Under the pieces are notes generated by a model. The model was given only the letters and a program-made list of their open reading frames with translations, was not told the DNA's origin and did no database searches. Below are positions 7,490 to 64,000 of a stretch of DNA of 64,000 bases, piece by piece. Numbering within the stretch: position 1 is the first letter of the stretch; every line of letters starts with the position of its first letter. The position numbers and the translations under genes were made by a program. This DNA is from Methylovulum miyakonense HT12 (GTDB lineage Bacteria; Pseudomonadota; Gammaproteobacteria; Methylococcales; Methylomonadaceae), in contig NZ_KB913025.1 in the NCBI RefSeq assembly GCF_000384075.1, positions 3,595,721-3,659,720 of the forward strand, in the 5' to 3' direction.

Positions 7490-10400
7490 ATGACCGCCCT
7501 ACAAACCCTGCTCAACACCTACCGCGAAGCCGCCCAAACCCACCGTGAAAAAGGCACTTATTTTGAAGACTTGATTTGCACCTACCTTCGCAACGAAGCC
7601 AGCTATAAGGATTTGTACAGCGATGTGTGGACGTATGGCGATTGGGCGCGGGAACAGGGCTTGGACGCGCGGGACACGGGCATTGACTTGGTGGCGAAAA
7701 CCCAAGGTACGGACGAATACCATGCCATCCAATGCAAGTTCTATGAAGAAGGCCACCGGGTGCAAAAATCCGACATCGACAGCTTTTTCACCGCCTCCGG
7801 CAAAAAGCCCTTCACCCACCGGATTATCATCAGCACCACTGATAACTGGAGCGAACACGCCGAGGACGCGCTGCAAAACCAACAGCCGCCCGTCAGCAAA
7901 ATAGATTTGAACGACCTGGAAAACAGCCAGATTGGCTGGTCTCTGTATCAGCCAGATAAACCGCCAGTACTCAAACCCCAAAAAAAATTAAGGCCACATC
8001 AAACCAATGCTTTATATGGTGTTAGGACAGGCTTAGAAACCGCCAACCGTGGCAAACTGATTATGGCCTGTGGCACAGGCAAAACTTTCACTAGCCTAAA
8101 AATTGCAGAACGTTTGGCGGGAAAAGGCAAGCGTGTGTTGTTTCTTGTACCTAGCCTGTCCTTGTTGTCGCAAAGCCTCACCGAATGGACGCAAGAATCC
8201 GCCACGCCCCTGCACAGTTTTGCCGTGTGTTCCGACAGCGACATAGGCCACAAGCGCAAAAAAGACGATGACATCGTGCAGACCTTCACCCACGAATTGC
8301 GCTACCCCGCCACCACCCACGCGGGGCAGCTTGCCAAGGAAATGACCAAACACCACGACAGCCATCACATGAGCGTGGTGTTTTCCACCTACCATTCCAT
8401 TGAAGTTCTCAGCAAAGCCCAAAAAGAACACGGCTTGGCTGATTTTGACCTAATAATCTGCGACGAAGCCCACCGCACCACGGGCGCAACCTTTGATGAC
8501 GATGACGAATCCACCTTCGTCAAAGTCCACGATGCCGGGTTTATCAAAGCCGCCAAACGCCTGTACATGACCGCCACCCCGCGCATCTATGGCGGCATGG
8601 CAAAAGCCACCGCTGAAAAAACCAACGCGGCCTTGTGTTCAATGGACGATGAAGCCCTGTACGGCAAAGAGCTGTACGTCATCAGCTTTTCTGAAGCGGT
8701 CAAACAGGAATTATTGGTCGATTATAAAGTGCTGGTGTTGGCAATAGACGAAGCCCACGTCAGCCAACGCCTGCAAAAACTCTTGGCGGATGACAACAAC
8801 CAACTGAAAGTAGACGATGCCGCCAAAATTGTCGGCTGCTGGAAAGCCCTGTCCAAACAAGGTGCAAGTCAAGACCTAACCGACGATGCCGCGTTCATGC
8901 GCCGCGCCGTGGCCTTTTGCCAAGTCATCGAACCCGCCACCAATCCCAAAACCCACAAAGTCAGCTCCAAAAACATCGCCAAGATGTTCAAGGCCGTCGT
9001 GGATGCCTATCGGGAAGCCGAAATCGAAGCGGGTAACATCGCCCAACCTGCACTGGAACTGCAATGTGAGGCCGAACACATCGACGGCAGCATGAACGCC
9101 AGCGAAAAAGAAACCAAGCTCACTTGGCTAAAAGCGCAAACGCCCGACAACACCTGCCGCATCTTAAGCAATGTCCGTTGTTTGTCCGAAGGCGTGGACG
9201 TACCCGCCTTGGATGCCGTGCTGTTTTTAACCCCGCGCAATTCGCAAGTGGACGTGGTGCAATCGGTGGGGCGCGTTATGCGCCTGGCCCCGGGCAAAAA
9301 GCGCGGCTACATCATCCTGCCTGTGGTAATCCCCGCTGGCGTAGAGCCAGACAAAGCCTTAGACGACAACAAGACCTACAAAGTCGTCTGGCAAGTCCTG
9401 CAAGCCTTACGCGCCCATGATGACCGCTTTGATGCCATGATTAACAAACTGGATTTGATCGGCAAAGACACCAGCAAAATGGAAGTGATCGCCATCACCG
9501 ACAAAATCCAGAAAAAAGCCAAAAAGCCCGCCGACACCAACGCGAATACCGCCGCCAAAGCCAAACGCGAATACGGCATTGGCGAAACCGTCAAAAAGCC
9601 CAAACAAGAAGACATCATAGAAACCTTTGAAGTGGACGACATCCAACGCGCCATCTACGCCAAAGTCGTGCAAAAATGCGGCAACCGCAGCCACTGGGAA
9701 GATTGGGCGAACGACATTGCCAAAATCGCCCGCACCCACATCACCCGCATCCAAGCCATCTTAGACACGCCGTCCAACACCGAAGAAATCGCCGCTTTCA
9801 ATGCCTTTGCAGAAGAACTGCGCGACGACCTCAATAACGCCATCACCGACACCGAAATCGTCGAAATGCTGGCCCAGCATCTCATCACCAAACCTGTATT
9901 TGATGCCCTGTTCCAAGATTACAGCTTTGCCCAGCACAACCCCATGTCGGTTGCCATGCAAGACATCCTGGACAAATTGCAAGAACACCACCTCGACAAA
10001 GAAGCCGACACCCTGAAAGCCTTCTACGACAGCGTGAAAATGAGGGCGGACAAAATCGAAAGCGCGGCGGGCAAACAAAAAATCGTCGTCGAGCTGTACG
10101 ACAAATTTTTCCGCAACGCCTTCCCGCGCATGACCGAAAAACTGGGCATTGTCTACACGCCCGTGGAAGTGGTGGACTTCATCATCCACAGCGTCAACGA
10201 CGCGCTACAAAACGAATTCGGGCAAACCCTGGGCGATGAAAACGTCCACATCATCGACCCGTTCACGGGCACCGGCACGTTTATCACCCGCTTGCTACAA
10301 AGCGGCCTGATTAGCCCCGAACAACTGCCCTACAAATACCAACACGAAATCCACGCCAATGAAATCGTCTTGCTGGCCTACTACATAGCTGCCATCAACA

Positions 10401-49305: not shown

Positions 49306-50232
49306 ATGACCCTATTGCTAGAAGCAGACCACCTATACCGCCATTACGGCAAGCGCTGTGCAGTCAATGACGTCAGTTTTACCCTCTCGCGTGGCGAAGT
49401 GCTGGGTTTTTTGGGGCCTAACGGTGCCGGCAAAACCACCACCCTGCAGATGCTCTGCGGATTGCTGGCGCCCGATACCGGAACCATTAAAATCAATGGC
49501 ATTGACTTGTTAAGCCACCCCAAACTTGCCAAACAGTCGCTAGGCTATTTGCCCGACACACCGCCGCTCTATAAAGATTTGACCGTGCAGGAGTTCTTAC
49601 GCTATTGCGGGCAACTGCACGGCATGGCCAAACCGCAGATTGCCCGTGCCATCACCCAAGCCCAAGACCGCTGCGGTTTGCAGGAAGCCACGCATCGCCT
49701 GATCGGGCAGCTGTCCAAAGGTTTCCAGCAACGCCTAGGCATTGCCCAAGCCATCCTGCATAACCCCGACGTGATCATCCTCGACGAGCCCACGGTTGGG
49801 CTGGACCCTTTGCAAATCCGTGAAATCCGCGCCTTGATCCGTGAATTGGGGCAAGGGCATGGGGTGATCTTATCCACCCATATCCTCAGCGAAGTCCAAG
49901 AATCCTGCACACATGTGCAAATTATCCATCAAGGCCAATTGATACTGCGGGAAAATGTCGCGGGGCTTAACCAACAGTTGGAGGCCGGTAGCCTGGAAGT
50001 GACGACACGGCTTGCGGCTGATTTGTCGGTGTTGGCCGCCATCCCCGGGGTCACCCGAATCAAACCTTTGACGGACTTGCGGTTGCAAATCCATTACCGC
50101 ACCAGTGACAATCCCAAGCAAAAAATCACGGAAACGATTATGGCTAAAGGTTGGGGATTGCAAGAGCTCACGCCGATAAAAAAATCGATGGAAGACATTT
50201 TTATCGGCCTAACCCAAGATGACGCCCCATGA
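49306..50232 (+). CDS. ABC transporter ATP-binding protein (GldA-like)
   Basis: A 308-residue ATPase with Walker A GPNGAGKTTT (38-47), signature LSKGFQQRLGIAQAI near 137, Walker B VIILDEPTVGLDP near 160 and a C-terminal extension of about 85 residues. With the next two genes it forms a Gld-type transporter (GldA, GldF, GldG). Outside gliding Bacteroidetes such sets are common and their substrate is unknown. It overlaps the permease by four bases. Confidence 0.88.
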   Translation: MTLLLEADHLYRHYGKRCAVNDVSFTLSRGEVLGFLGPNGAGKTTTLQMLCGLLAPDTGTIKINGIDLLSHPKLAKQSLGYLPDTPPLYKDLTVQEFLRYCGQLHGMAKPQIARAITQAQDRCGLQEATHRLIGQLSKGFQQRLGIAQAILHNPDVIILDEPTVGLDPLQIREIRALIRELGQGHGVILSTHILSEVQESCTHVQIIHQGQLILRENVAGLNQQLEAGSLEVTTRLAADLSVLAAIPGVTRIKPLTDLRLQIHYRTSDNPKQKITETIMAKGWGLQELTPIKKSMEDIFIGLTQDDAP

Positions 50233-50981
50233 TCTCCACCATCGCCATTCGGGAATTTAAGGCCTTGTTTTTATCGCCGGTCGCTTGGAGCCTGCTGGCG
50301 GTGCTGCAATTTATTTTGGCTTATTTGTTTTTGAAACAAGTGGAAACCTTCATGGTGCTGCAACCCAAACTGGCGGCCATCCCCAATAGCCCCGGCTTGA
50401 CCGATATCGTCGTACCGCCGTTGTTCGGCAATGCCGCAATCATCTTGTTGCTGGCCGTGCCGCTGTTGACCATGCGCCTGATCGCCGAAGAACGCCGCAA
50501 CAAAACCCTACCGCTATTGTTGTCCGCGCCACTTACCAACGCTGAAATTATCCTCGGCAAATTTTTGGGCTGTTTGGGCTTGCTGGTTATTGTCATTGGC
50601 TTGGTTACGGCAATGCCCCTGTCGTTATTGCTGGGTGGCGAATTGGATTTTGGCAAGCTGTCCGCCAATGTCCTGGCTTTATTGATGCTGGTCTCCGCCT
50701 TGACCGCCACCGGCTTGTATTTGTCCTGCATCACCCAGCATCCTGTCGTCGCGGGCATAGGCAGTTTCGGCTTGTCGTTGGTTTTATGGCTATTGGACAC
50801 TGGTTCGCAAATGCGCGACCATCGCAATGAATGGCTGGAATATTTGTCGCTGTTACGGCATTTCCAGAACCTGCAAAGCGGCTTGATCAACTCGGTTGAT
50901 GTGGTTTATTTTTTAGTGTTCATCAGCATTTTTATCTTACTTAGCATCCGGAGTTTGGATAAGTTGCGGTGGCAAAAATGA
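50229..50981 (+). CDS. ABC-2 type permease (GldF-like)
   Basis: A 250-residue membrane protein with six predicted helices and the ABC-2 feature RLIAEERRNKTLPLLLSAPL (near 79), which couples to the ATPase. It overlaps both neighbours (ATGA at each end), so the three proteins should be made together. Confidence 0.87.
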   Translation: MISTIAIREFKALFLSPVAWSLLAVLQFILAYLFLKQVETFMVLQPKLAAIPNSPGLTDIVVPPLFGNAAIILLLAVPLLTMRLIAEERRNKTLPLLLSAPLTNAEIILGKFLGCLGLLVIVIGLVTAMPLSLLLGGELDFGKLSANVLALLMLVSALTATGLYLSCITQHPVVAGIGSFGLSLVLWLLDTGSQMRDHRNEWLEYLSLLRHFQNLQSGLINSVDVVYFLVFISIFILLSIRSLDKLRWQK

Positions 50982-52258
50982 AGCCATCCATCCGTAGGAT
51001 AAACACCCTAAAGACCCTGGCGGCCCTGTCTTTATTGCTAGGGCTGGCTTGGTCAAGCACCCGCCACCCCTGGCAAGTTGACATCACCGCCGCGTCGAAC
51101 AACACCTTGTCGGCAGCTTCGCAAAAACTGTTGCAGGCCATGCCGGATAGCATCAAAATCACCGCCTACCTTAAAAAAGGCTTGCCGGTACGCTTGCAAA
51201 TTGCGCAATTGCTAGACCGATACCGCCGTTATAAAGCGGATCTGTCTTTGGAATTTGTCGACCCCGATAGCCAACCGGAAAAAACCCGCGAATTGGAAAT
51301 TGGCCCTGAAGGGGCGGTGCTCGTTGAATATCGCGGGCACACCGAAAAACTGACGTTTGTCGATGAATCCACGTTGACCAATGCCTTGCTGCAAGTGGCG
51401 CATGCGGAGCGGCGGTGGGTGAGCTTTTTGACCGGGCACGGCGAACGCGCACCGGACGGCATCGCCAATTTTTCGTGGGGGCAATTTGGAAAGGAACTGG
51501 CCTTGCGTAAGGTCACCGCCTTGACCATCAACTTGGCAACGGTGCCCACCATCCCGGACAATTCCGCCTTATTGGTCATTGCCGCCCCCACGGTAGGGCT
51601 GCTTCCTGGCGAAATCGAGACCGTCAAGCGCTATGTCCAAAATGGCGGCAACCTGTTGTTACTGGGTGAGCCGGACAGCACGCACCTTGTTGCCTTGCAG
51701 GGGCAACTTGGCATCCGCCAAGCAACCGTCCCGATCCTTGATGACAGCACCCGGATGTATGGCATCGACGACCCCCGTTTTGTCATCGCCAGCAGTTACC
51801 CGTCGCATCCGATCACGCGGGGGCTACAACTGATTAGCCTTTACCCGTTAGCGGCGGCGCTCACTGCCGACAAAAGCGGGCCATTCCAAGCGAAACCCTT
51901 ACTTGAAACCACGGGCCAAAGCTTGGCCTCCAAAGCCAACGGCAGCCAAATTTTTGCTTACGCGCTCACCCGCGACCTGGCCAGGAAACAGCAACGGGTC
52001 GTGGTCGTCGGCGACAGTGATTTTTTGTCGAACGCCTACTTGGGCAATGTCGGAAATTTGGATGTGGGGATACGCATCATCAATTGGCTGCTCCAAAATG
52101 ACGGGTTTGTCGACATTCCGGCAAACACGGCAACCGACAAACACCTGGCCTTGAGCGCGCCCGCCGTCGCCGTCATTGGTTTTGGGTTCTTGCTGGGCTT
52201 GCCGCTAGGGCTGGCCATTACGGGATTTGTCATCTGGCGTAAACGCAAGCGGCGCTAA
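50978..52258 (+). CDS. GldG-like ABC exporter auxiliary protein
   Basis: A 426-residue protein with an N-terminal membrane helix (residues 9-25), a periplasmic domain of the GldG/DUF4350-like ABC_transp_aux type (LLVIAAPTVGLLPGE, LLLLGEPDSTHL) and a C-terminal membrane helix followed by basic residues. The ATG at 50978 overlaps the permease stop; a GTG three codons earlier is possible. The end overlaps the convergent cyclic-di-GMP gene by 54 bases. Confidence 0.85.
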   Translation: MKPSIRRINTLKTLAALSLLLGLAWSSTRHPWQVDITAASNNTLSAASQKLLQAMPDSIKITAYLKKGLPVRLQIAQLLDRYRRYKADLSLEFVDPDSQPEKTRELEIGPEGAVLVEYRGHTEKLTFVDESTLTNALLQVAHAERRWVSFLTGHGERAPDGIANFSWGQFGKELALRKVTALTINLATVPTIPDNSALLVIAAPTVGLLPGEIETVKRYVQNGGNLLLLGEPDSTHLVALQGQLGIRQATVPILDDSTRMYGIDDPRFVIASSYPSHPITRGLQLISLYPLAAALTADKSGPFQAKPLLETTGQSLASKANGSQIFAYALTRDLARKQQRVVVVGDSDFLSNAYLGNVGNLDVGIRIINWLLQNDGFVDIPANTATDKHLALSAPAVAVIGFGFLLGLPLGLAITGFVIWRKRKRR

Positions 52259-55176: not shown

Positions 55177-56448
55177 TCAGCCAAAAAACCAATAAGCCAC
55201 GAACATGCTCGCCACCACCCCTGCCCCGTCGGCAAGCAAACCGCAAGCGACCGCATAGCGGCTATACCTGACCCCGACCGCCCCCAAATACACCGCCAGC
55301 ACATAAAAAGTCGTTTCGGTGCTGCCTTGGACTATACACGCCAAACGCCCGGCAAACGAATCCGCCCCCAAGGTTTTCATCGTGTCCAGCATCATCGCCC
55401 GCGCCCCGCTGCCGCTAAACGGCTTAATCAAGGCGGTTGGCAACGCGTCGACAAAACGGTTGTCAATGGCCAACCCGTCGGCTAAAGCGCGGATGCCGCT
55501 GGACAACAACCCGAACGCGCCGCTGGCACGGAACACCCCAATGGCCACCAGCATCGCCACCAGATAAGGGACAATTGTCACCGCCGTCTGGAAACCGTCT
55601 TTTGCACCGTCAATAAACGCCTCATAAGCATTCACGTTTTTATAAACGGCACCGGCAATAAAGGCCGCCACCAACGAGAACAGCAAGACATGGCTTAAGG
55701 TCGCCGATTGCTCCAGCATCTCCTGTTGCGGCAAGGCCGAAAAATACCCCAGCAGGCCGCCCACCATGAGCGTCAAACCGCCCAAATAAGCCAACACCAC
55801 CTTGTCCAGTAGATTGATTTTCTGGGCATAAGCAACCGCCAGCAACCCCGCCAATGTGGAAATATAAGTCGCGATCAGGATAGGGATAAACACATCGGTA
55901 GGGTTGAGCGCACCCAATTGCGCCCGATAACTGAAAATCGTCACCGGAAACAAGGTGACGCTGGAGCTATTGATCACCAAAAACAGGATTTGCGCGGAAC
56001 TCGCCGTATCCGGCTTGGGATTGAGTGTTTGCAACTCCTGCATCGCCTTAATGCCCAACGGGGTCGCGGCATTATCCAGCCCCAACATATTGGCCGAGAT
56101 ATTCATCACCATCGCCCCCAAAGCCGGATGGTTGCTTGGCACCTCCGGCATCAGGCGGCTAAACAAAGGGATCAGCCCACGGGTCAACAACAGGATAAAG
56201 CCGCCCCTTTCACCCACGCGCATAATCCCCAGCCACAAAGCCAAAATGCCTGCCAGCCCTAGGGAAATTTCAAACGCGGACTTGGACTGCGTGAACATAG
56301 CCGCCATAATGTCGGCAAAAACCTGCGGGTCACCGAAAAAAAGCCATTTGATGGACGCGATAAGGAAAGCGACGAGGAAAAAACCGATCCAGATAATATT
56401 GAGCATGAAAGTGCCAAGGAAAAAGCCGCCTATTGATGGCGATTGCAA
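55177..56448 (-). CDS. SpmA-SpmB-like fused nucleoside-recognition membrane protein
   Basis: A 423-residue integral membrane protein with about ten helices. The N-terminal half (LGLDNAATPLGIKAMQEL near 125) resembles spore maturation protein A and the C-terminal half (PFSGSGARAMMLDTMKTLG near 342, then GSTETTFYVLAVYLGAVG) protein B. Fused forms are common in non-sporulating proteobacteria; the substrate is unknown. It is a single leftward gene. Confidence 0.85.
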   Translation of the reverse strand: MQSPSIGGFFLGTFMLNIIWIGFFLVAFLIASIKWLFFGDPQVFADIMAAMFTQSKSAFEISLGLAGILALWLGIMRVGERGGFILLLTRGLIPLFSRLMPEVPSNHPALGAMVMNISANMLGLDNAATPLGIKAMQELQTLNPKPDTASSAQILFLVINSSSVTLFPVTIFSYRAQLGALNPTDVFIPILIATYISTLAGLLAVAYAQKINLLDKVVLAYLGGLTLMVGGLLGYFSALPQQEMLEQSATLSHVLLFSLVAAFIAGAVYKNVNAYEAFIDGAKDGFQTAVTIVPYLVAMLVAIGVFRASGAFGLLSSGIRALADGLAIDNRFVDALPTALIKPFSGSGARAMMLDTMKTLGADSFAGRLACIVQGSTETTFYVLAVYLGAVGVRYSRYAVACGLLADGAGVVASMFVAYWFFG

Positions 56449-56681: not shown

Positions 56682-57251
56682 ATGTTAGTTTGGTCAGACA
56701 GTTTTGCGACAAAAATAGAAATCGTTGATACACAACATAAAAAATTATTTGAACTACTAAACCGCTTACCCGAATGTGTTGCATCAGGCAGGCCTGATCC
56801 GGAGATGATAGATTCCATATTAAAAGAATTAATGGCTTATGCCGACAAGCATTTCGTCGATGAAGAACTACTGATGGCACACCATCACTTGGATCCCAGA
56901 CATATCAACGTCCACCGTATGGAACACAAATCCTTTATGTATGATGTTCAGAACATGTGGGAGCACTTGTCCTTGGAAGAAGATTTGACGGAAGTTTCAG
57001 AAAAGCTCGTGCGTTTTGTCACTTCATGGTTGACATACCACATCCTTGGGATAGACCAAGTTATGGCGCTTCAAATTTTTGCCATCCACCATGGCGAAAC
57101 TCCAGAGCAAGCCTATGAGTTGCGCCATACCATCAAATATGACTCGGCAACCACCCATTTAATGTTGGATTCTGTGCTGGATTTGTGGCACATGTCTATG
57201 GATCGCTGCCATAGGCTAGAAACTAAATTGGCGGCGTTGGAAAACCCTTAA
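56682..57251 (+). CDS. Bacteriohemerythrin with C-terminal extension
   Basis: A 189-residue oxygen-binding di-iron protein. Hemerythrin ligands are seen in DTQHKKLFELL (His20), HFVDEELLMAHHHLD (near 59), VHRMEHKSF (near 81) and YHILGIDQVM (near 114). The domain ends near residue 130; a further 55 helical residues ending MDRCHRLETKLAALENP are not part of the usual fold. Bacteriohemerythrins are abundant in methanotrophs, where oxygen supply to methane monooxygenase has been proposed. GGAG precedes the ATG. Confidence 0.88.
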   Translation: MLVWSDSFATKIEIVDTQHKKLFELLNRLPECVASGRPDPEMIDSILKELMAYADKHFVDEELLMAHHHLDPRHINVHRMEHKSFMYDVQNMWEHLSLEEDLTEVSEKLVRFVTSWLTYHILGIDQVMALQIFAIHHGETPEQAYELRHTIKYDSATTHLMLDSVLDLWHMSMDRCHRLETKLAALENP

Positions 57252-57320: not shown

Positions 57321-58331
57321 TTAACCGGCCGCCCCGACAAGGTCAGGTTTGAGCACTTTGATGCCAATGGCCGACAGTGCCGCGTCCAAGCGCCGGTACA
57401 TCGCGTCATCGGTATAAGTCCCGATAATGGCTCCCCCTGAACCGGTAAAGTTTGCGCTGGCTCCCACGCTTCTGGCGGCTTCGACCATGCGCAGATTGCC
57501 GCCGCTGATTTTCAAAATACGTTTCCTTACATCAAAATTGCGGTCAACCAATCCGGCTATCTCGCCCCCCCTGCCCGCTTCCAGCAAGGCTTTGGCCTGT
57601 ACGGCCAAGTCCGCGCACTCCGCCATGGCATTAACCACGTCCGTATCCCCCCGGCCATAACGTTCCCTAAGGTCATTGTGGGTGGTTTCCGAACCTTCGG
57701 CCAAATCGCTACGGTAGGCTAGGTAAAGGTTCGGCAACAGTTTTATATCCAGATTCACATAATCGCCATAGCCTTGCCGCTCCATCAGGGTTTTATCAAA
57801 ATCCATATAAACCAGCCCCTGGTAGACCTGCGCCACCCTATCCTGTAGCCCCGCCCCAATCAGCAATTCATCCTTTTCAACGGAGAGTATCAGGTTCGCC
57901 AACTGCGGTTTCGGAATGCTAACGCCATAAAACTGCATCAGCCCGCGCAGGCAGGCGGTGACAATCGCACTGGATCCTGCCAGCCCTAGCCGCTGCGGGA
58001 TGGTCGTGCCGTAACCCAACGTAAAATTCCGGTTATCGGGCGCTATGGCTTGGCTCAGGCAATACTCGTGAAAACGCTTGATGGCCGCTTTCAACAGGCG
58101 GACGCCGCCGTAATAACCGTAAGCCTGAATATCCCCGACCAGCTGCGCCATCGAGGCAAACACCAGTTTGTCCCGGTCATTAGGCAAAATTTCCAGCCGC
58201 TCCGATTCAGTCAGGCTAACTTCAGCATGGAAATTACTGAACACAAACGCAAGCGTCTTGCCGAAATAACCGTCGGAAGGGTTCCCGACCAACGCGGCGC
58301 GCGGGTAGGAACGGGTTACGATGATGTTCAT
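57321..58331 (-). CDS. GHMP kinase, glucuronokinase-like
   Basis: A 336-residue sugar kinase. The N-terminal RAALVGNPSDGYFGKTLAF resembles plant glucuronokinase, the phosphate loop is PQRLGLAGSSA (112-122), and the C-terminal GHMP motif is ANFTGSGGAIIG near 296. The expected reaction is phosphorylation of a sugar or uronic acid at C1. GAAGGAA precedes the ATG at 58331; the frame open to 58361 is less likely. Last gene of the unusual leftward cluster, following the ATP-grasp gene by about 85 bases. Confidence 0.85.
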   Translation of the reverse strand: MNIIVTRSYPRAALVGNPSDGYFGKTLAFVFSNFHAEVSLTESERLEILPNDRDKLVFASMAQLVGDIQAYGYYGGVRLLKAAIKRFHEYCLSQAIAPDNRNFTLGYGTTIPQRLGLAGSSAIVTACLRGLMQFYGVSIPKPQLANLILSVEKDELLIGAGLQDRVAQVYQGLVYMDFDKTLMERQGYGDYVNLDIKLLPNLYLAYRSDLAEGSETTHNDLRERYGRGDTDVVNAMAECADLAVQAKALLEAGRGGEIAGLVDRNFDVRKRILKISGGNLRMVEAARSVGASANFTGSGGAIIGTYTDDAMYRRLDAALSAIGIKVLKPDLVGAAG

Positions 58332-58416
58332 GTGGATTCCTTCAGGCAGACCCACAAACAATACGCAAAACGAAAGTTTTCATGTCTTCCGTGCTGTCCG
58401 TGGGCACATAATCGGA

Positions 58417-59910
58417 TTAGGCAAGACCCAAATTGCCCCATAATTTAAGGCTGACCCCCATCCAGGCAGGTACGGAAGGGTCATCCGCCAATAACCGGGA
58501 GTGGCCCAAACCCGCAGGCCGTGGGTTTGCCTCCAAAAACACCGGAATAATCTTGCCGTCCTGGCCGCAATCAAGCAAAACGTCCAGCCCCATCAGCAGC
58601 AGGCCCTCGAACAAACTGGCCGCCCGCCCGGCCTGCGTGCAGATACGGCGCCAGTCTTGGGCATCAAGACGGACGGGCTTGCCGTCATAATCTAAGCCGG
58701 AAATGGCTTCATCAATAGGCATAATGCCCCCGCCGCGCCCACAGGACGCAGGATGTTGCCAGTCCCGCCCCAATTGCGCATAACCCGATTCCAGCCCATA
58801 CCGTTGCCCGTCGAAAGCCAAATTGAGGCGCAAAGCCAAGGTTTGCCGGATACCGCTGAGCGGGTTCAGGAAGCCCACGCCATCGCAGCGTTGTTGCATG
58901 ATGGCGGCACCCTGCATCCAGCAGCGTTGCAGATGCGTTTCCAGCAAAGCTTTGGCCTGACCATCACCCCGTTGGAAAAAAGCCACCAACTCGCCTTCGG
59001 TGGCCTGATTCGGTTTCACCACGATTTCGGCACAACGCTCAAAAAAACTAAACGCCGTTTCCCAATCCCCCGGCGCAACAGTTTGCCAAACCGGCACGTC
59101 CAATCCCAAAGCCACCCAACCCGCCAAAGTGGCGGCTTTATCATCGGCCAGCCTTGACGGCGATGCCGGATTGACCTGTAAGCAATGGTAGCGTTGGGAT
59201 AAGGCTGCGTGGTGTGCTTGCTCCTGCTTACCCAAGCAAAGGAACTGTACGCTATCGGGATGCAGGGGCACGGCCAGATCGGTTTCGACCAGCCGCCCTG
59301 ACGCAACATCAAGATAAATGGCACGCCGCAAAGCGCCGTTTTCGGCAAGCCAACCCATATGCGCCCCAAAAACATGGGTGCGCGGCCCACCATAACGCCC
59401 GCAATCATGCTCGTAGGCATCGACAGCCAACGGGTAAAATTCATGGGTGAAAAATACGGCGGAGGCGAACAAGACCACATGGATGCCGTCTCCGGGCAAC
59501 ACCGCCGGGAATCCAGGCGCTGAGGCAGGGCTTGATTGGAGACAAAGTTCCGGCGCCAACGGCTCGCTGAGTACAGTTTCCAAAGCCAGGTCAACCAGGC
59601 GTTGCCGATAAAGCGATGCTTCCGCCAATAGACCCCATTCCATCTCCGGCAGATTATTGATGGCGCCCATGCCTGCCAGCATATCGCTTAGCAATGCCTC
59701 CAACCGCCTGCGTAACGCGATGCCTGCATCGGTTTGCCAATGGGCACGCCAGTAACGGATTTCCCCGCCGCCCAATCCTTCCAACAGGAGATACTTAAGG
59801 AACACACTGGCCTCAAGCATAGTGAGCGGGGAATCAGCTTCAATCCCTAGCGCATCGCCTGTCCGTTCGCGGGCGTTTTGTATTTGCCGGGGATCAGGAA
59901 AATAAGGCAT
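58417..59910 (-). CDS. ATP-grasp-like ligase of unknown substrate
   Basis: A 497-residue protein. The second half has ATP-grasp hallmarks: EIVVKPNQATEGELV near 293 (ATP-binding Lys), a hydrophobic strand pair around LRLNLAFDGQRYGLESGYA, and the magnesium motif VFLEANPRPAGLGHS near 455. The first half is unfamiliar. Enzymes of this fold make acyl-phosphate intermediates to form amide or ester bonds. The ATG at 59910 overlaps the end of the giant upstream gene by 17 bases, so the two are coupled. The exact family is not recognised. Confidence 0.65.
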   Translation of the reverse strand: MPYFPDPRQIQNARERTGDALGIEADSPLTMLEASVFLKYLLLEGLGGGEIRYWRAHWQTDAGIALRRRLEALLSDMLAGMGAINNLPEMEWGLLAEASLYRQRLVDLALETVLSEPLAPELCLQSSPASAPGFPAVLPGDGIHVVLFASAVFFTHEFYPLAVDAYEHDCGRYGGPRTHVFGAHMGWLAENGALRRAIYLDVASGRLVETDLAVPLHPDSVQFLCLGKQEQAHHAALSQRYHCLQVNPASPSRLADDKAATLAGWVALGLDVPVWQTVAPGDWETAFSFFERCAEIVVKPNQATEGELVAFFQRGDGQAKALLETHLQRCWMQGAAIMQQRCDGVGFLNPLSGIRQTLALRLNLAFDGQRYGLESGYAQLGRDWQHPASCGRGGGIMPIDEAISGLDYDGKPVRLDAQDWRRICTQAGRAASLFEGLLLMGLDVLLDCGQDGKIIPVFLEANPRPAGLGHSRLLADDPSVPAWMGVSLKLWGNLGLA

Positions 59911-62900
59911 CGGACAGCTTCTTGGCCTTGAGCGCGTCAAGATACGCCTCCCCGGCACGGTTCAAATCCCTCAGCACTATCCTGGCGTTCTCACCGATGC
60001 GGTTCCAGTCAGGGTCGATGCCTGCGTCACGGGCACGTTCCAATTCGTGATGCTCCTCGCGCAAGGCCACGCGGTCCCACAAGCCCACGCCGATATTCGG
60101 CTCGATCAGCACGATACGCCAATCAACAACCGTGCCCGGAAAACGATGTAAGCCTTGTTGTAAGATAAAGCGCGAGCCTACGCGGCAACCGTTGCCATCA
60201 AACATCGGTTCGATTTCAACTAACTGGCCTTCCTCACCGAACACTGGCGTAATCAAAAAATCCAGCATCATATAGCGGGGCATGCCGTAGGAAACGCCGG
60301 TTAAATCGCTACCCACCATCCGCCCGGTTTCCTGGGTATACGCCGCCGCGCCGCAGGCTTCGTAGGCGGCCAGCGCCTCCATCACCTGCCGGCCGGCTTC
60401 GGCCAGTTTGCCGAGAATGGTTTGCCGGTATTCGGGACGTATGGTTTCCGGCAACAGCAAATCCAAGGTTCCGCCCCGGCCGACATTGGTGATCAATTGC
60501 TTGCTGTTAAGCGTGATCCAATGGGAAATATGCCATTTTTTATCGGCATCCGCTTCGTCCGGATGGCCCGTGGACAGGATAATCCGGTGCGATCCAAAAA
60601 TCGGCGTATAAGGCAACCGTTGCCGGTTCACGGCGCTACCCCACTCAACGATTTGCCTATGCACAAAACCCTGCATGAATGCCTCGGTGGCCCAGTGTTC
60701 TGGTGAACTCAGGATCACTTCCTGAATACAGACATGGTGTTTCAGCGAGATTTGATAAATAAAATCCACCGCCTGCCCGATTTGCCCGTCATCCAGGCCG
60801 CCGTCAGGGCCTACCAGCAGGAAAGCCTGGGCGTTGCGGCCACCGGATTCGGCGGCGTCCTTAATCATGACTAAGGGATGGCATCGGGAAAACGCCAGTA
60901 AACCGGGATAGCCCGTTTCCGCCCAACCATTTTTGATCCAGCCTTTAACCACGGATTTTTCCGCACTGCGGGCGGTGTCATCGGCTAGCCAATTGATTTC
61001 CTCCGGCATGTCCACTGCGCTGCCAGCAAAAATATCCCGGTATTTGGCCTTGTCGTAGGTCGTCCAGGTGTGGAACAACGATTGCACCGTATACGGCAAG
61101 CCGCAGGCTTCAAGCTTACCCTGGGTGTAGACAGGGTCACCGTGGAAGGGATACACCAGCGCGGCCAGCACCGGCCGGGAGAAATGCGCCGCCACCCGTA
61201 TGCCCTTGGGCGGTATGCGGGATGCCAGATGGTCGGCTTCCTGTTCGGAACAGCCTTTATGCTTTATCAAGGCTTGTTTATAGCTGGCGGCATCCAGATA
61301 AAAATGGCCGCTGCCGATCAACGCCACCGGACGTGGATATTCTGGCTGTTCAAGAATATTGACTTTTCGGGTGATAATCAGGTTGCCGCCACGCTGGCCT
61401 TGCGTTTCCAATTCCCGCGCCAGACTGGGGCCTTCGCAGAGCATACGCGAAAAATGGGTGCGGCCGACTGGCGCGGCAATGACGTGGTTGACCCTGGTAC
61501 GGTCATGGATAAGTTCGGGATCGAATTCAGGAAAGACTTCTGGCACAGCAAAACCGTCGTTGCATATAAACGCCAACTCCCGCAACTGCCCATAAGCCCG
61601 CCAGATTTTTTCCGCATCCCCGTCCGCGCCAGCACCGATGGCTTCCATCGCGTTGCCGTCCAGAAAATTGCCCAACAGCATATCCTGCTCTGCTTCGGGC
61701 AACGCCCTCAGCTCGGTGTAACAGGTCAACACAAAACGCAGGTAACGGTACAACCACTGGTGATGTTCCACTGCCAACCGATACAGCGCTTCACCGTGGT
61801 AATCGGCATAACCGGTGCCACGGCTATACAGCCAGGGCCGGTATTCATAACTGTGGTCGTTGAGGGTTTGGGCGAAGAAACCGGACAGCGCCCGCCATAA
61901 AGGCACGGCATCGACCGCCGCCGGTTCCTGATGGGTATAAGCGATGGTGCTATCAACCGCCAAAACGATGTAAAACAGTTCGCCGCCCTGGGCTATGCAG
62001 CGTAAGGCCTGATCCTTGCTTGCCGCGTCGATTTTGCCTTGCCGGGCGCGTTCACGGACATTTTGCGCCAAACGGCCAAAATCGCCGATGTCTTCATAGC
62101 CGCCAGCGATGCGCTGGTAAACCTGTTCGTCGATTTGCCGGCCTGAAAACAATGGCTCCAGACTGGCCAGCATGGCTTGCGTGTGTTCGGGATGACCGTC
62201 GTCCTGATAGGCTTTGGCCAAGGCTGTCAGCGCATTGCGGGCAAATTTCAGGAACGCACCGAAAGCCGCTTCGGACACTGGCTGACCGCCGTTGCCCAGG
62301 GTTTCAATGGCCTGGCGGTAATTATCGGAAAAACGGTCGGACTCGGCTTGCGCCGTCGCAAAACCGGTTTGGCGCTGGTTCAGGGCACGGGCCTGGGCAA
62401 TGCGGGCGGCCAACTGGCGGCGGGTTTCCAACGCCACCGCAGGCCGCTCATCCATCGCTTTGTTGGAGCTTTCTATGCCTTTTTCCTGACGGAATCCGGC
62501 CACCAGCCCCTGCCGCTGTGCCGATAACAATTGGGCAACAAGGCTTTCATCCATATCGCCTGCGCTGCCACCCAACGATGCAATACCGTTGGCAAAGCCC
62601 GTCATCGCGGCATGGATTTCGTTTTCGTCTGCGCCGACAAACAAATACAATCCACCCAAGGCCAGAAAACCAATAAAATCCAACTCCGCCAAGGTCAAAC
62701 CGCTGCCGATACGCACTAAGGCTTCCACCAGCATCCGGTCGCGTCCGCTGTCACGGCCGAAACGGCCTAGCTTATCGGTTTCAGTTAAGGCCGACTGGAT
62801 TTCATGATCCTGCTGGATTTCGCCGACAACACGCGCGTAAAGCTGGTTGGCAAGCGTAAGATTTTGGGAAGTTAAAGCTTGCCAAAGCCGTTCGGCGCGA

Positions 62901-64000
62901 CGACGGCGACGGCGCATGTCCGAACGCCAGGCTTCGACGGTTTGCTGGCCCACGCCCACGCTTAAATAGATGGATTCTTTGCCCAGGCGTTCGGCGGCGG
63001 CAAACCAGAGCATGACATCGCCACGGTTCATCGCCCGATGCCTAGCCCCGGCTGCGCCATCGGCAATCACCAGGGCGCTGTTCGGGTTTCCTTCCAACAT
63101 CAGGCGGCAAAGCCGGGCGGGGTCGGCCAGCAATTCCAGCAGGCTGCGGTGGGGAATGCCGGTGTCGATGACATCCGCGCCCTGCACGGCGTATCCGTAA
63201 TGCCGATCCGGCCCCAACACGGCTAGCGCCAGCGCATGGATACGTCCGCCCAGCCGCTCCTGTAAATCCGCGCCAAGCACCGAACGATAATCCCATCGGC
63301 CCAAGCGGCCGCCCCAGGTGCGCAAATTGGCTTCGATTTCCTTATCGCTCAAGCCCAGCGCCAGCAACTCCCGGCGGGTTGCATCGGCGATGGCTTCAAG
63401 CCGGGTGTCGCTGGTGTAATTCAGCAAATCCTGGGTGGACAAGCCTGTCGGCGAAACCATGCGGATTTCCGCAGGCGGCTTGGCGGGCGGGAACAACGGG
63501 GGCAACTGGGCGATGGCGGCCTGGTCATCTCCGTTTATCCCCATCATGTCCCGGATACGGCCATCCCAACCGCGCTGCCGCACACTGGCAAAGCCTTCGT
63601 TCATTAGCACGGCAACCATGCGGCCATCCAGGTCAAGGGCGTGCAGCAAATGCCCGCCGGTACCCGCCAAGATTTCAAACTTGCGCAAACCGGTGGCGAA
63701 ACGGGCATCCTGGGTGTCGGGTTTGTATTCGGCGGTCAGCACGACCACGCAGTTTTCAAAATTGATGGCAATGTCAGGACGGCGGCGGGCGGCTTCGGCA
63801 ACGCCCTGGCGGATCAGCCAGGATTTGAAGAAGGGCATGAAGCGGTTGACCTGCTCGCCGCCAGTCACCATTTTATGCAAGCCCCAACCGGCGGCCAGGC
63901 CGGAGGCGACCCGATAAGGATCACGCAGCTGCGGTTTGCCCAAATGCTCCAGGACATGCGCGATACGGGTGATCTGGAACACCGGCAGGCCACGGCTGAC
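59894..64000 (-). CDS. Giant protein with ATP-grasp-like C-terminus (5' end outside the window)
   Basis: At least 1362 residues. The frame is still open at the window edge, so the true start may lie outside; numbering here is from the GTG at 63982. The N-terminal 900 residues match nothing I know; they include an Arg-rich patch (DMRRRRRRAERLW, near 360) and mostly helical sequence. The C-terminal third looks like a diverged ATP-grasp: LVMIKDAAESGGRNAQAF (near 1034), MVGSDLTGVSYGMPRYM (near 1222) and VEIEPMFDGNGCRVGSR (near 1253). No membrane segments or signal peptide are seen. It probably acts with the next two genes. Confidence 0.6.
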   Translation of the reverse strand, partial: VSRGLPVFQITRIAHVLEHLGKPQLRDPYRVASGLAAGWGLHKMVTGGEQVNRFMPFFKSWLIRQGVAEAARRRPDIAINFENCVVVLTAEYKPDTQDARFATGLRKFEILAGTGGHLLHALDLDGRMVAVLMNEGFASVRQRGWDGRIRDMMGINGDDQAAIAQLPPLFPPAKPPAEIRMVSPTGLSTQDLLNYTSDTRLEAIADATRRELLALGLSDKEIEANLRTWGGRLGRWDYRSVLGADLQERLGGRIHALALAVLGPDRHYGYAVQGADVIDTGIPHRSLLELLADPARLCRLMLEGNPNSALVIADGAAGARHRAMNRGDVMLWFAAAERLGKESIYLSVGVGQQTVEAWRSDMRRRRRRAERLWQALTSQNLTLANQLYARVVGEIQQDHEIQSALTETDKLGRFGRDSGRDRMLVEALVRIGSGLTLAELDFIGFLALGGLYLFVGADENEIHAAMTGFANGIASLGGSAGDMDESLVAQLLSAQRQGLVAGFRQEKGIESSNKAMDERPAVALETRRQLAARIAQARALNQRQTGFATAQAESDRFSDNYRQAIETLGNGGQPVSEAAFGAFLKFARNALTALAKAYQDDGHPEHTQAMLASLEPLFSGRQIDEQVYQRIAGGYEDIGDFGRLAQNVRERARQGKIDAASKDQALRCIAQGGELFYIVLAVDSTIAYTHQEPAAVDAVPLWRALSGFFAQTLNDHSYEYRPWLYSRGTGYADYHGEALYRLAVEHHQWLYRYLRFVLTCYTELRALPEAEQDMLLGNFLDGNAMEAIGAGADGDAEKIWRAYGQLRELAFICNDGFAVPEVFPEFDPELIHDRTRVNHVIAAPVGRTHFSRMLCEGPSLARELETQGQRGGNLIITRKVNILEQPEYPRPVALIGSGHFYLDAASYKQALIKHKGCSEQEADHLASRIPPKGIRVAAHFSRPVLAALVYPFHGDPVYTQGKLEACGLPYTVQSLFHTWTTYDKAKYRDIFAGSAVDMPEEINWLADDTARSAEKSVVKGWIKNGWAETGYPGLLAFSRCHPLVMIKDAAESGGRNAQAFLLVGPDGGLDDGQIGQAVDFIYQISLKHHVCIQEVILSSPEHWATEAFMQGFVHRQIVEWGSAVNRQRLPYTPIFGSHRIILSTGHPDEADADKKWHISHWITLNSKQLITNVGRGGTLDLLLPETIRPEYRQTILGKLAEAGRQVMEALAAYEACGAAAYTQETGRMVGSDLTGVSYGMPRYMMLDFLITPVFGEEGQLVEIEPMFDGNGCRVGSRFILQQGLHRFPGTVVDWRIVLIEPNIGVGLWDRVALREEHHELERARDAGIDPDWNRIGENARIVLRDLNRAGEAYLDALKAKKLSDALFS

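Follow-up and report, generated by a model that had tools for sequence, protein, structure and literature searches.

A giant protein with a nucleotide-sugar dehydrogenase-like core, coupled to an ATP-grasp enzyme, in Methylovulum miyakonense and related methanotrophs

The window analysed here (64,000 nucleotides, bases 3,595,721-3,659,720 of the one-contig 4.69-Mb genome of Methylovulum miyakonense HT12) carries at its right end three genes, all leftward (-) in the ORF listing, which encode a giant protein, an ATP-grasp enzyme and a GHMP kinase (Table 1). The giant contains a core that resembles nucleotide-sugar dehydrogenases and keeps residues of their active site, its gene is coupled to that of a second protein with an ATP-grasp domain, and genes of the GHMP kinase and GalU families often lie downstream. 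The operon is genuine and its genes share a theme; the chemistry proposed for it is a prediction from sequence. Our tentative reading, possible rather than probable, is a sugar-nucleotide conjugation system, so far only in Methylococcaceae, in which the kinase and GalU would provide the supply, the giant would bind and the ATP-grasp enzyme would ligate to an amine.

The three leftward genes are those claimed in the earlier note, and several of its details held: the 497-residue protein has both the VKPNQ and the EANPRP motif, the GHMP kinase carries NPSDGYFGK, and the first two genes overlap by 17 bases, given the ATG of the ATP-grasp gene that was picked by alignment over a longer GTG reading (513 aa). 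The kinase has an alternative start, a TTG at 58361, giving 346 aa. The giant, noted earlier as a protein of at least 1362 residues, is cut by the window end; its real length is 2,485 residues, not 1,362, and the whole gene extends 3,351 bases beyond the window, to G000:C1:3663071. The dehydrogenase-like core sits just past the window end and was consequently overlooked at that first reading.

Table 1. Positions in the window of the operon genes and of the stretches discussed in the text.
Feature	Position	Strand	Evidence
Giant gene, C-terminal part (1,368 residues and stop)	59894..64000	(-)	ORF, full protein, alignment, homologs in 10 further loci
Giant residues about 1202-1244, weakly matching the UDP-binding C-terminal domain of nucleotide-sugar dehydrogenases (VVVLTAEYKPDTQDARF)	63620..63748	(-)	hhalign
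Giant residues about 2159-2420, with invariant residues ordered as in ATP-grasp enzymes (K..GGR, QE, RGG, D, ExN)	60092..60877	(-)	Alignment; profile tests negative
Overlap of giant stop with ATP-grasp start, 17 bases	59894..59910	(-)	Conserved at relatives' junctions
ATP-grasp enzyme, 497 aa from ATG at 59910	58417..59910	(-)	ORF, alignment, profile comparison
ATP-grasp domain of the 497-aa protein, approximate limits	58510..59175	(-)	hhalign profile positions 253-475; Pfam stretches at residues 244-468
GHMP kinase, 336 aa from ATG at 58331	57321..58331	(-)	PF00288; PDB profile matches; Rufibacter plasmid relative

The giant was found in ten further loci (nine from one homolog search, plus L058), in relatives labelled Methylococcaceae, Methylovulum, Methylobacter and Methyloglobulus morosus. 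Of 237 family genomes, 8 carry it, spread over 4 of 29 genera, among them that of the window. The sole giant match at 1e-7 in a phylum sample of 299 genomes was the window's own. In a class sample of 369 genomes, 20 other genomes matched the giant profile at 1e-3; every one of these matches fell within positions 933-1060, and the open frames that held them were 422-475 residues long, a length typical of ordinary dehydrogenases. Identity to the window giant is 55-75% for the seven others in the alignment (which holds 8 of the 11 giants and leaves out the frameshift-split L003, the partial L005 and L058), and dN was 0.16-0.40 against a dS of at least 1.15 in six comparisons, of which two were saturated; the giant gene is therefore not a product of chance. 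The frameshift that splits the giant gene in L003, a MAG, lies at about 9763-9797 and may be sequencing error or decay.

The ATP-grasp gene directly follows the giant gene in all 11 loci. The 17-base overlap is constant in the window and nine relatives (computed for seven relatives, and read at the junctions of the window, L006 and L007, the last two being highly similar to each other), which suggests translational coupling of the two genes. Kinase and/or GalU were present downstream of the pair in 7 of the 10 informative loci, L006 being excluded because its sequence ends too early. The kinase lies downstream, in the same orientation, in five loci (L002, L004, L007, L008 and L009) and GalU in three (L005, L007 and L011), and both are absent after the pair in L003, L010 and L058, the last with just 926 bases left. 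A gene-neighbourhood check had been suggested for the whole trio: the giant and ATP-grasp genes proved constant, but the kinase is variable, with a strong match in 4 of the 8 giant-bearing genomes and a weak one (4.5e-9), located elsewhere, in a fifth (G089). Beside the operon, neither a glycosyltransferase nor an acceptor gene could be recognised.

Recent horizontal transfer of the giant gene is not favoured, because its G+C tracks each host; the gene is 3-9 points above its flanks in nine loci (L006, with 29 flank bases, was left out). Internal duplication within the giant was likewise rejected, as among nine blocks no pair scored above 22. Searches of IMG/VR with two peptide patterns each gave no relative of the giant C-terminus or the kinase, and no defence model matched the kinase, the ATP-grasp protein, the part of the giant inside the window or 1,164 residues from the giant of L004. 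The plasmid collection held no match to the ATP-grasp protein.

Other genes of the window lie close by. A hemerythrin-domain gene (56682-57251; TIGR02481, 97.6 bits) adjoins the operon on the opposite strand, and none was seen in the relatives' loci. The gene at 55177-56448 encodes a protein in which two stretches match the nucleoside-recognition Gate model (PF07670). At 49306-52258 there is a row of an ABC transporter ATPase, a second ORF (50229-50981) and an ABC_transp_aux/DUF4350 protein, which we take to be a Gld-like transporter set.

The kinase has a GHMP N-terminal domain (PF00288, 41 bits against a cut-off of 22.3), and its PDB profile matches are heptose and mevalonate kinases. At E<=1e-30, 4 of 151 family genomes have it, all of them giant carriers, and at E<=1e-25 the sole kinase match in a class sample of 293 genomes was the window's own. 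The kinase alignment includes L007, whose kinase is cut or frameshifted at a contig end. GalU was assigned by TIGR01099 (cut-off 326.8 bits) in L005 (363.8 bits) and L011 (357 bits); L007 scored 326.3, just under the cut-off.

A plasmid of Rufibacter tibetensis (L119 12022-13960) carries a GHMP kinase gene and then directly galU, with no giant-like gene annotated near the pair; its kinase matched that of the window at 46.5% identity, and in a comparison with the methanotroph genes the kinase was 47-49% and GalU 53-58% identical. This adjacency would fit an independent UDP-sugar salvage cassette (e.g. for UDP-glucuronate) that stands beside the giant pair by chance, and so would the strong kinase matches in just half of the giant carriers and the plasmid collection, in which nothing matched the giant's last 1,200 residues. 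By contrast, the confinement of the sampled Methylococcaceae kinases to giant carriers, together with the downstream position and shared orientation of the kinase in five loci, speaks against it, and we consider the chance neighbourhood unlikely.

The core of the giant was identified by block-wise profile comparison (40 shuffles each), in which residues 925-1075 matched residues 139-285 of nucleotide-sugar dehydrogenases (z=25.3). PF00984 matched 8 of 8 giants (best 7e-6); it scored 25.3 bits on the full window-genome giant, just below the cut-off of 25.4, and 30.7 bits, above it, in the genome search (G000:C1:3659910-3660113). A PDB search with the giant listed five sequences with E no higher than 10, all of them nucleotide-sugar dehydrogenases, the best being a UDP-ManNAcA dehydrogenase (4.6e-5). 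Residues K990, N994, C1045 and D1049 are invariant in 8 of 8 giants and align with active-site residues of the dehydrogenases, but the Glu of the PE motif, invariant in the 11 aligned dehydrogenases (from 11 of 20 dehydrogenase loci), is Ser936 in 8 of 8 giants. The catalytic roles of Lys990, Asn994, Cys1045 and Asp1049, and that of the PE-motif Glu, are those we assume for the family. Residues about 1202-1244 showed a weak match to the C-terminal UDP-binding domain (hhalign, z 4.1-4.3, above 40 of 40 shuffles, E 0.0015-0.0039). The NAD-binding domain was not found by profile comparison in any of eight giant blocks (z -0.8 to 0.9). Oxidation by the core is doubtful, because no NAD domain was found and the conserved Glu is replaced by Ser936.

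The best single relative found outside the giants is a WecC-type enzyme (L021), chosen as BLAST subject because it was the top match outside the giants in the class-level profile search; in pairwise BLAST against three subject sequences only, it aligned with 8 of 8 giants at 53-65 bits. Its score on the UDP-ManNAc dehydrogenase model, 454 bits, falls slightly short of the cut-off of 459, it passes the general family model, and wecB adjoins it. Structure models added little: residues 215-1414 of the L009 giant gave a pLDDT of 49.9, below 50 at the core, which was not recovered, and residues 1286-2485 of the window giant gave 51.1. Foldseek searches with the giant models gave no match at E below 0.001 and were disregarded. 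About 2,000 residues of the giant are without an assigned fold.

These results bear on the view of the giant as an active NAD-dependent UDP-sugar 6-dehydrogenase, with an NAD domain diverged beyond recognition in a large scaffold, in which the ATP-grasp enzyme ligates the uronate while the kinase serves as a side supply. The invariance of all four catalytic-type residues and the WecC-type best matches speak for such an enzyme, and a strongly conserved stretch (residues 672-700) might be a degenerate dinucleotide motif. However, the NAD domain went unmatched in all eight blocks, the Glu is replaced, and the host genome has two ordinary members of the dehydrogenase family. Moreover, about residues 718-867 (converted from L009 numbering), shortly before the core, were modelled as helices only (block pLDDT 56-83, in a model that is poor overall). 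We regard an active dehydrogenase as somewhat unlikely.

The second protein belongs to the ATP-grasp superfamily, judging by profile comparison, which gave statistical support to its earlier description as ATP-grasp-like. It matched PF14397-type proteins with an hhalign E of 3.9e-9 over profile positions 253-475. Against shuffled controls, z was 23.3-25.1 for the PF14397-type proteins, 7.5-11.4 for a glutathione-synthase-like set, and 0.3 (global) or 5.1 (local) for a RimK-like set; the names of the latter two sets were assigned by eye, and the ATP-grasp sets used 9 of 10, 20 of 30 and 10 of 20 loci. On PF14397 itself the window protein scored 15.5 bits, below the gathering score of 31.4.

The giant was also said to end in diverged ATP-grasp motifs. 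Ordered invariant residues are indeed present (K2164, E2211, D2364, E2417 and N2419 in 8 of 8 giants), and we take the stretch of about residues 2159-2420 to resemble ATP-grasp motifs, but none of the profile tests made recovered an ATP-grasp fold. A Pfam scan of ten giants at E up to 10, in which HMMER filters drop most weak matches, gave no ATP-grasp match; one of the ten matched AAA_21, at 0.12. Profile comparison of the C-terminus with the three ATP-grasp sets gave z at most 2.1, and against the glutathione-synthase-like set the reversed control scored 27.1, above the 16.6 of the real block. A PDB search gave nothing usable (one match, at 0.71). These comparisons do not support placing the giant among the ATP-grasp proteins.

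In the sugar-nucleotide conjugation system that we prefer, the GHMP kinase would form a sugar- or uronate-1-phosphate, and GalU would convert it to a UDP-sugar or UDP-uronate; in the window genome, GalU would need to lie elsewhere than in the operon. The giant would bind the UDP-sugar via its dehydrogenase-derived core, with C6 held or processed at Cys1045, and the coupled ATP-grasp enzyme would activate the carboxylate of the sugar and couple it with an amine, so that the product would be a uronamide or an amino-acid-linked sugar nucleotide. We infer the substrate, the order of the steps, the amide product and the joint action of the giant and the ATP-grasp enzyme. The sugar- or uronate-linked conjugate suggested in the earlier note is still the best reading of the operon, and the dehydrogenase-like core and the GalU genes of three relatives add weight to it; its product is a prediction.

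Peptides are often substrates of ATP-grasp enzymes, and the pair might modify a peptide or protein through the ATP-grasp enzyme, with the core as a dead UDP-sugar sensor or structural part and the sugar supply merely regulatory. The missing NAD domain and the replacement of Glu by Ser would suit a dead core, whereas invariant Cys, Lys, Asn and Asp would be unexpected in one. No conserved precursor gene was seen at the loci among ORFs of at least 80 aa, although shorter ones may exist. We judge this peptide or protein modification distinctly unlikely. As a more daring variant of sugar conjugation, and a very unlikely one, the NAD-less core might have been recruited as a UDP-uronyl carrier: activation by the ATP-grasp enzyme would place the sugar C6 in a thioester on Cys1045, and the giant would then pass it to the amine. 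If true, this would be a thioester-based sugar conjugation machine.

The conservation of the giant along its length and its constant ATP-grasp partner make the operon an entry point to a methanotroph metabolite, perhaps of sugar-acid type. The system could show the reuse of a well-understood oxidation module in a ligase setting, and the kinase, GalU, the giant and the ATP-grasp enzyme can each be assayed.

No description of a giant and ATP-grasp operon was found in the literature, judged largely by titles. Like WecC and UGDH (PF00984, TIGR03026), the giant has invariant Lys, Asn, Cys and Asp in a central catalytic region, and it shows what may be a weak trace of the C-terminal UDP-binding domain. 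Unlike them, it is nearly six times larger (2,485 residues) with the core embedded, its N-terminal NAD domain was not found, and the conserved Glu is Ser. The nearest families to the 497-aa protein are PF14397 (ATPgrasp_ST) and PF14398 (YheC/D): its domain aligns full length with PF14397-type proteins and keeps K, D and ExN, but its 245-residue N-terminal region clearly matched none of the sets compared (z at most 2.4), and the window protein falls below the Pfam cut-offs. For the kinase and GalU, the excerpt of PMC3938481 considered here describes a zebrafish enzyme of UDP-glucuronate salvage, a glucuronokinase with a putative pyrophosphorylase, in which kinase activity was confirmed and pyrophosphorylase activity was not. 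As far as that excerpt goes, both systems combine a GHMP kinase with a bacterial-type nucleotidyltransferase; by contrast, in the methanotrophs these are separate genes, the nucleotidyltransferase is of the GalU type, and they are attached to a core of giant and ATP-grasp genes.
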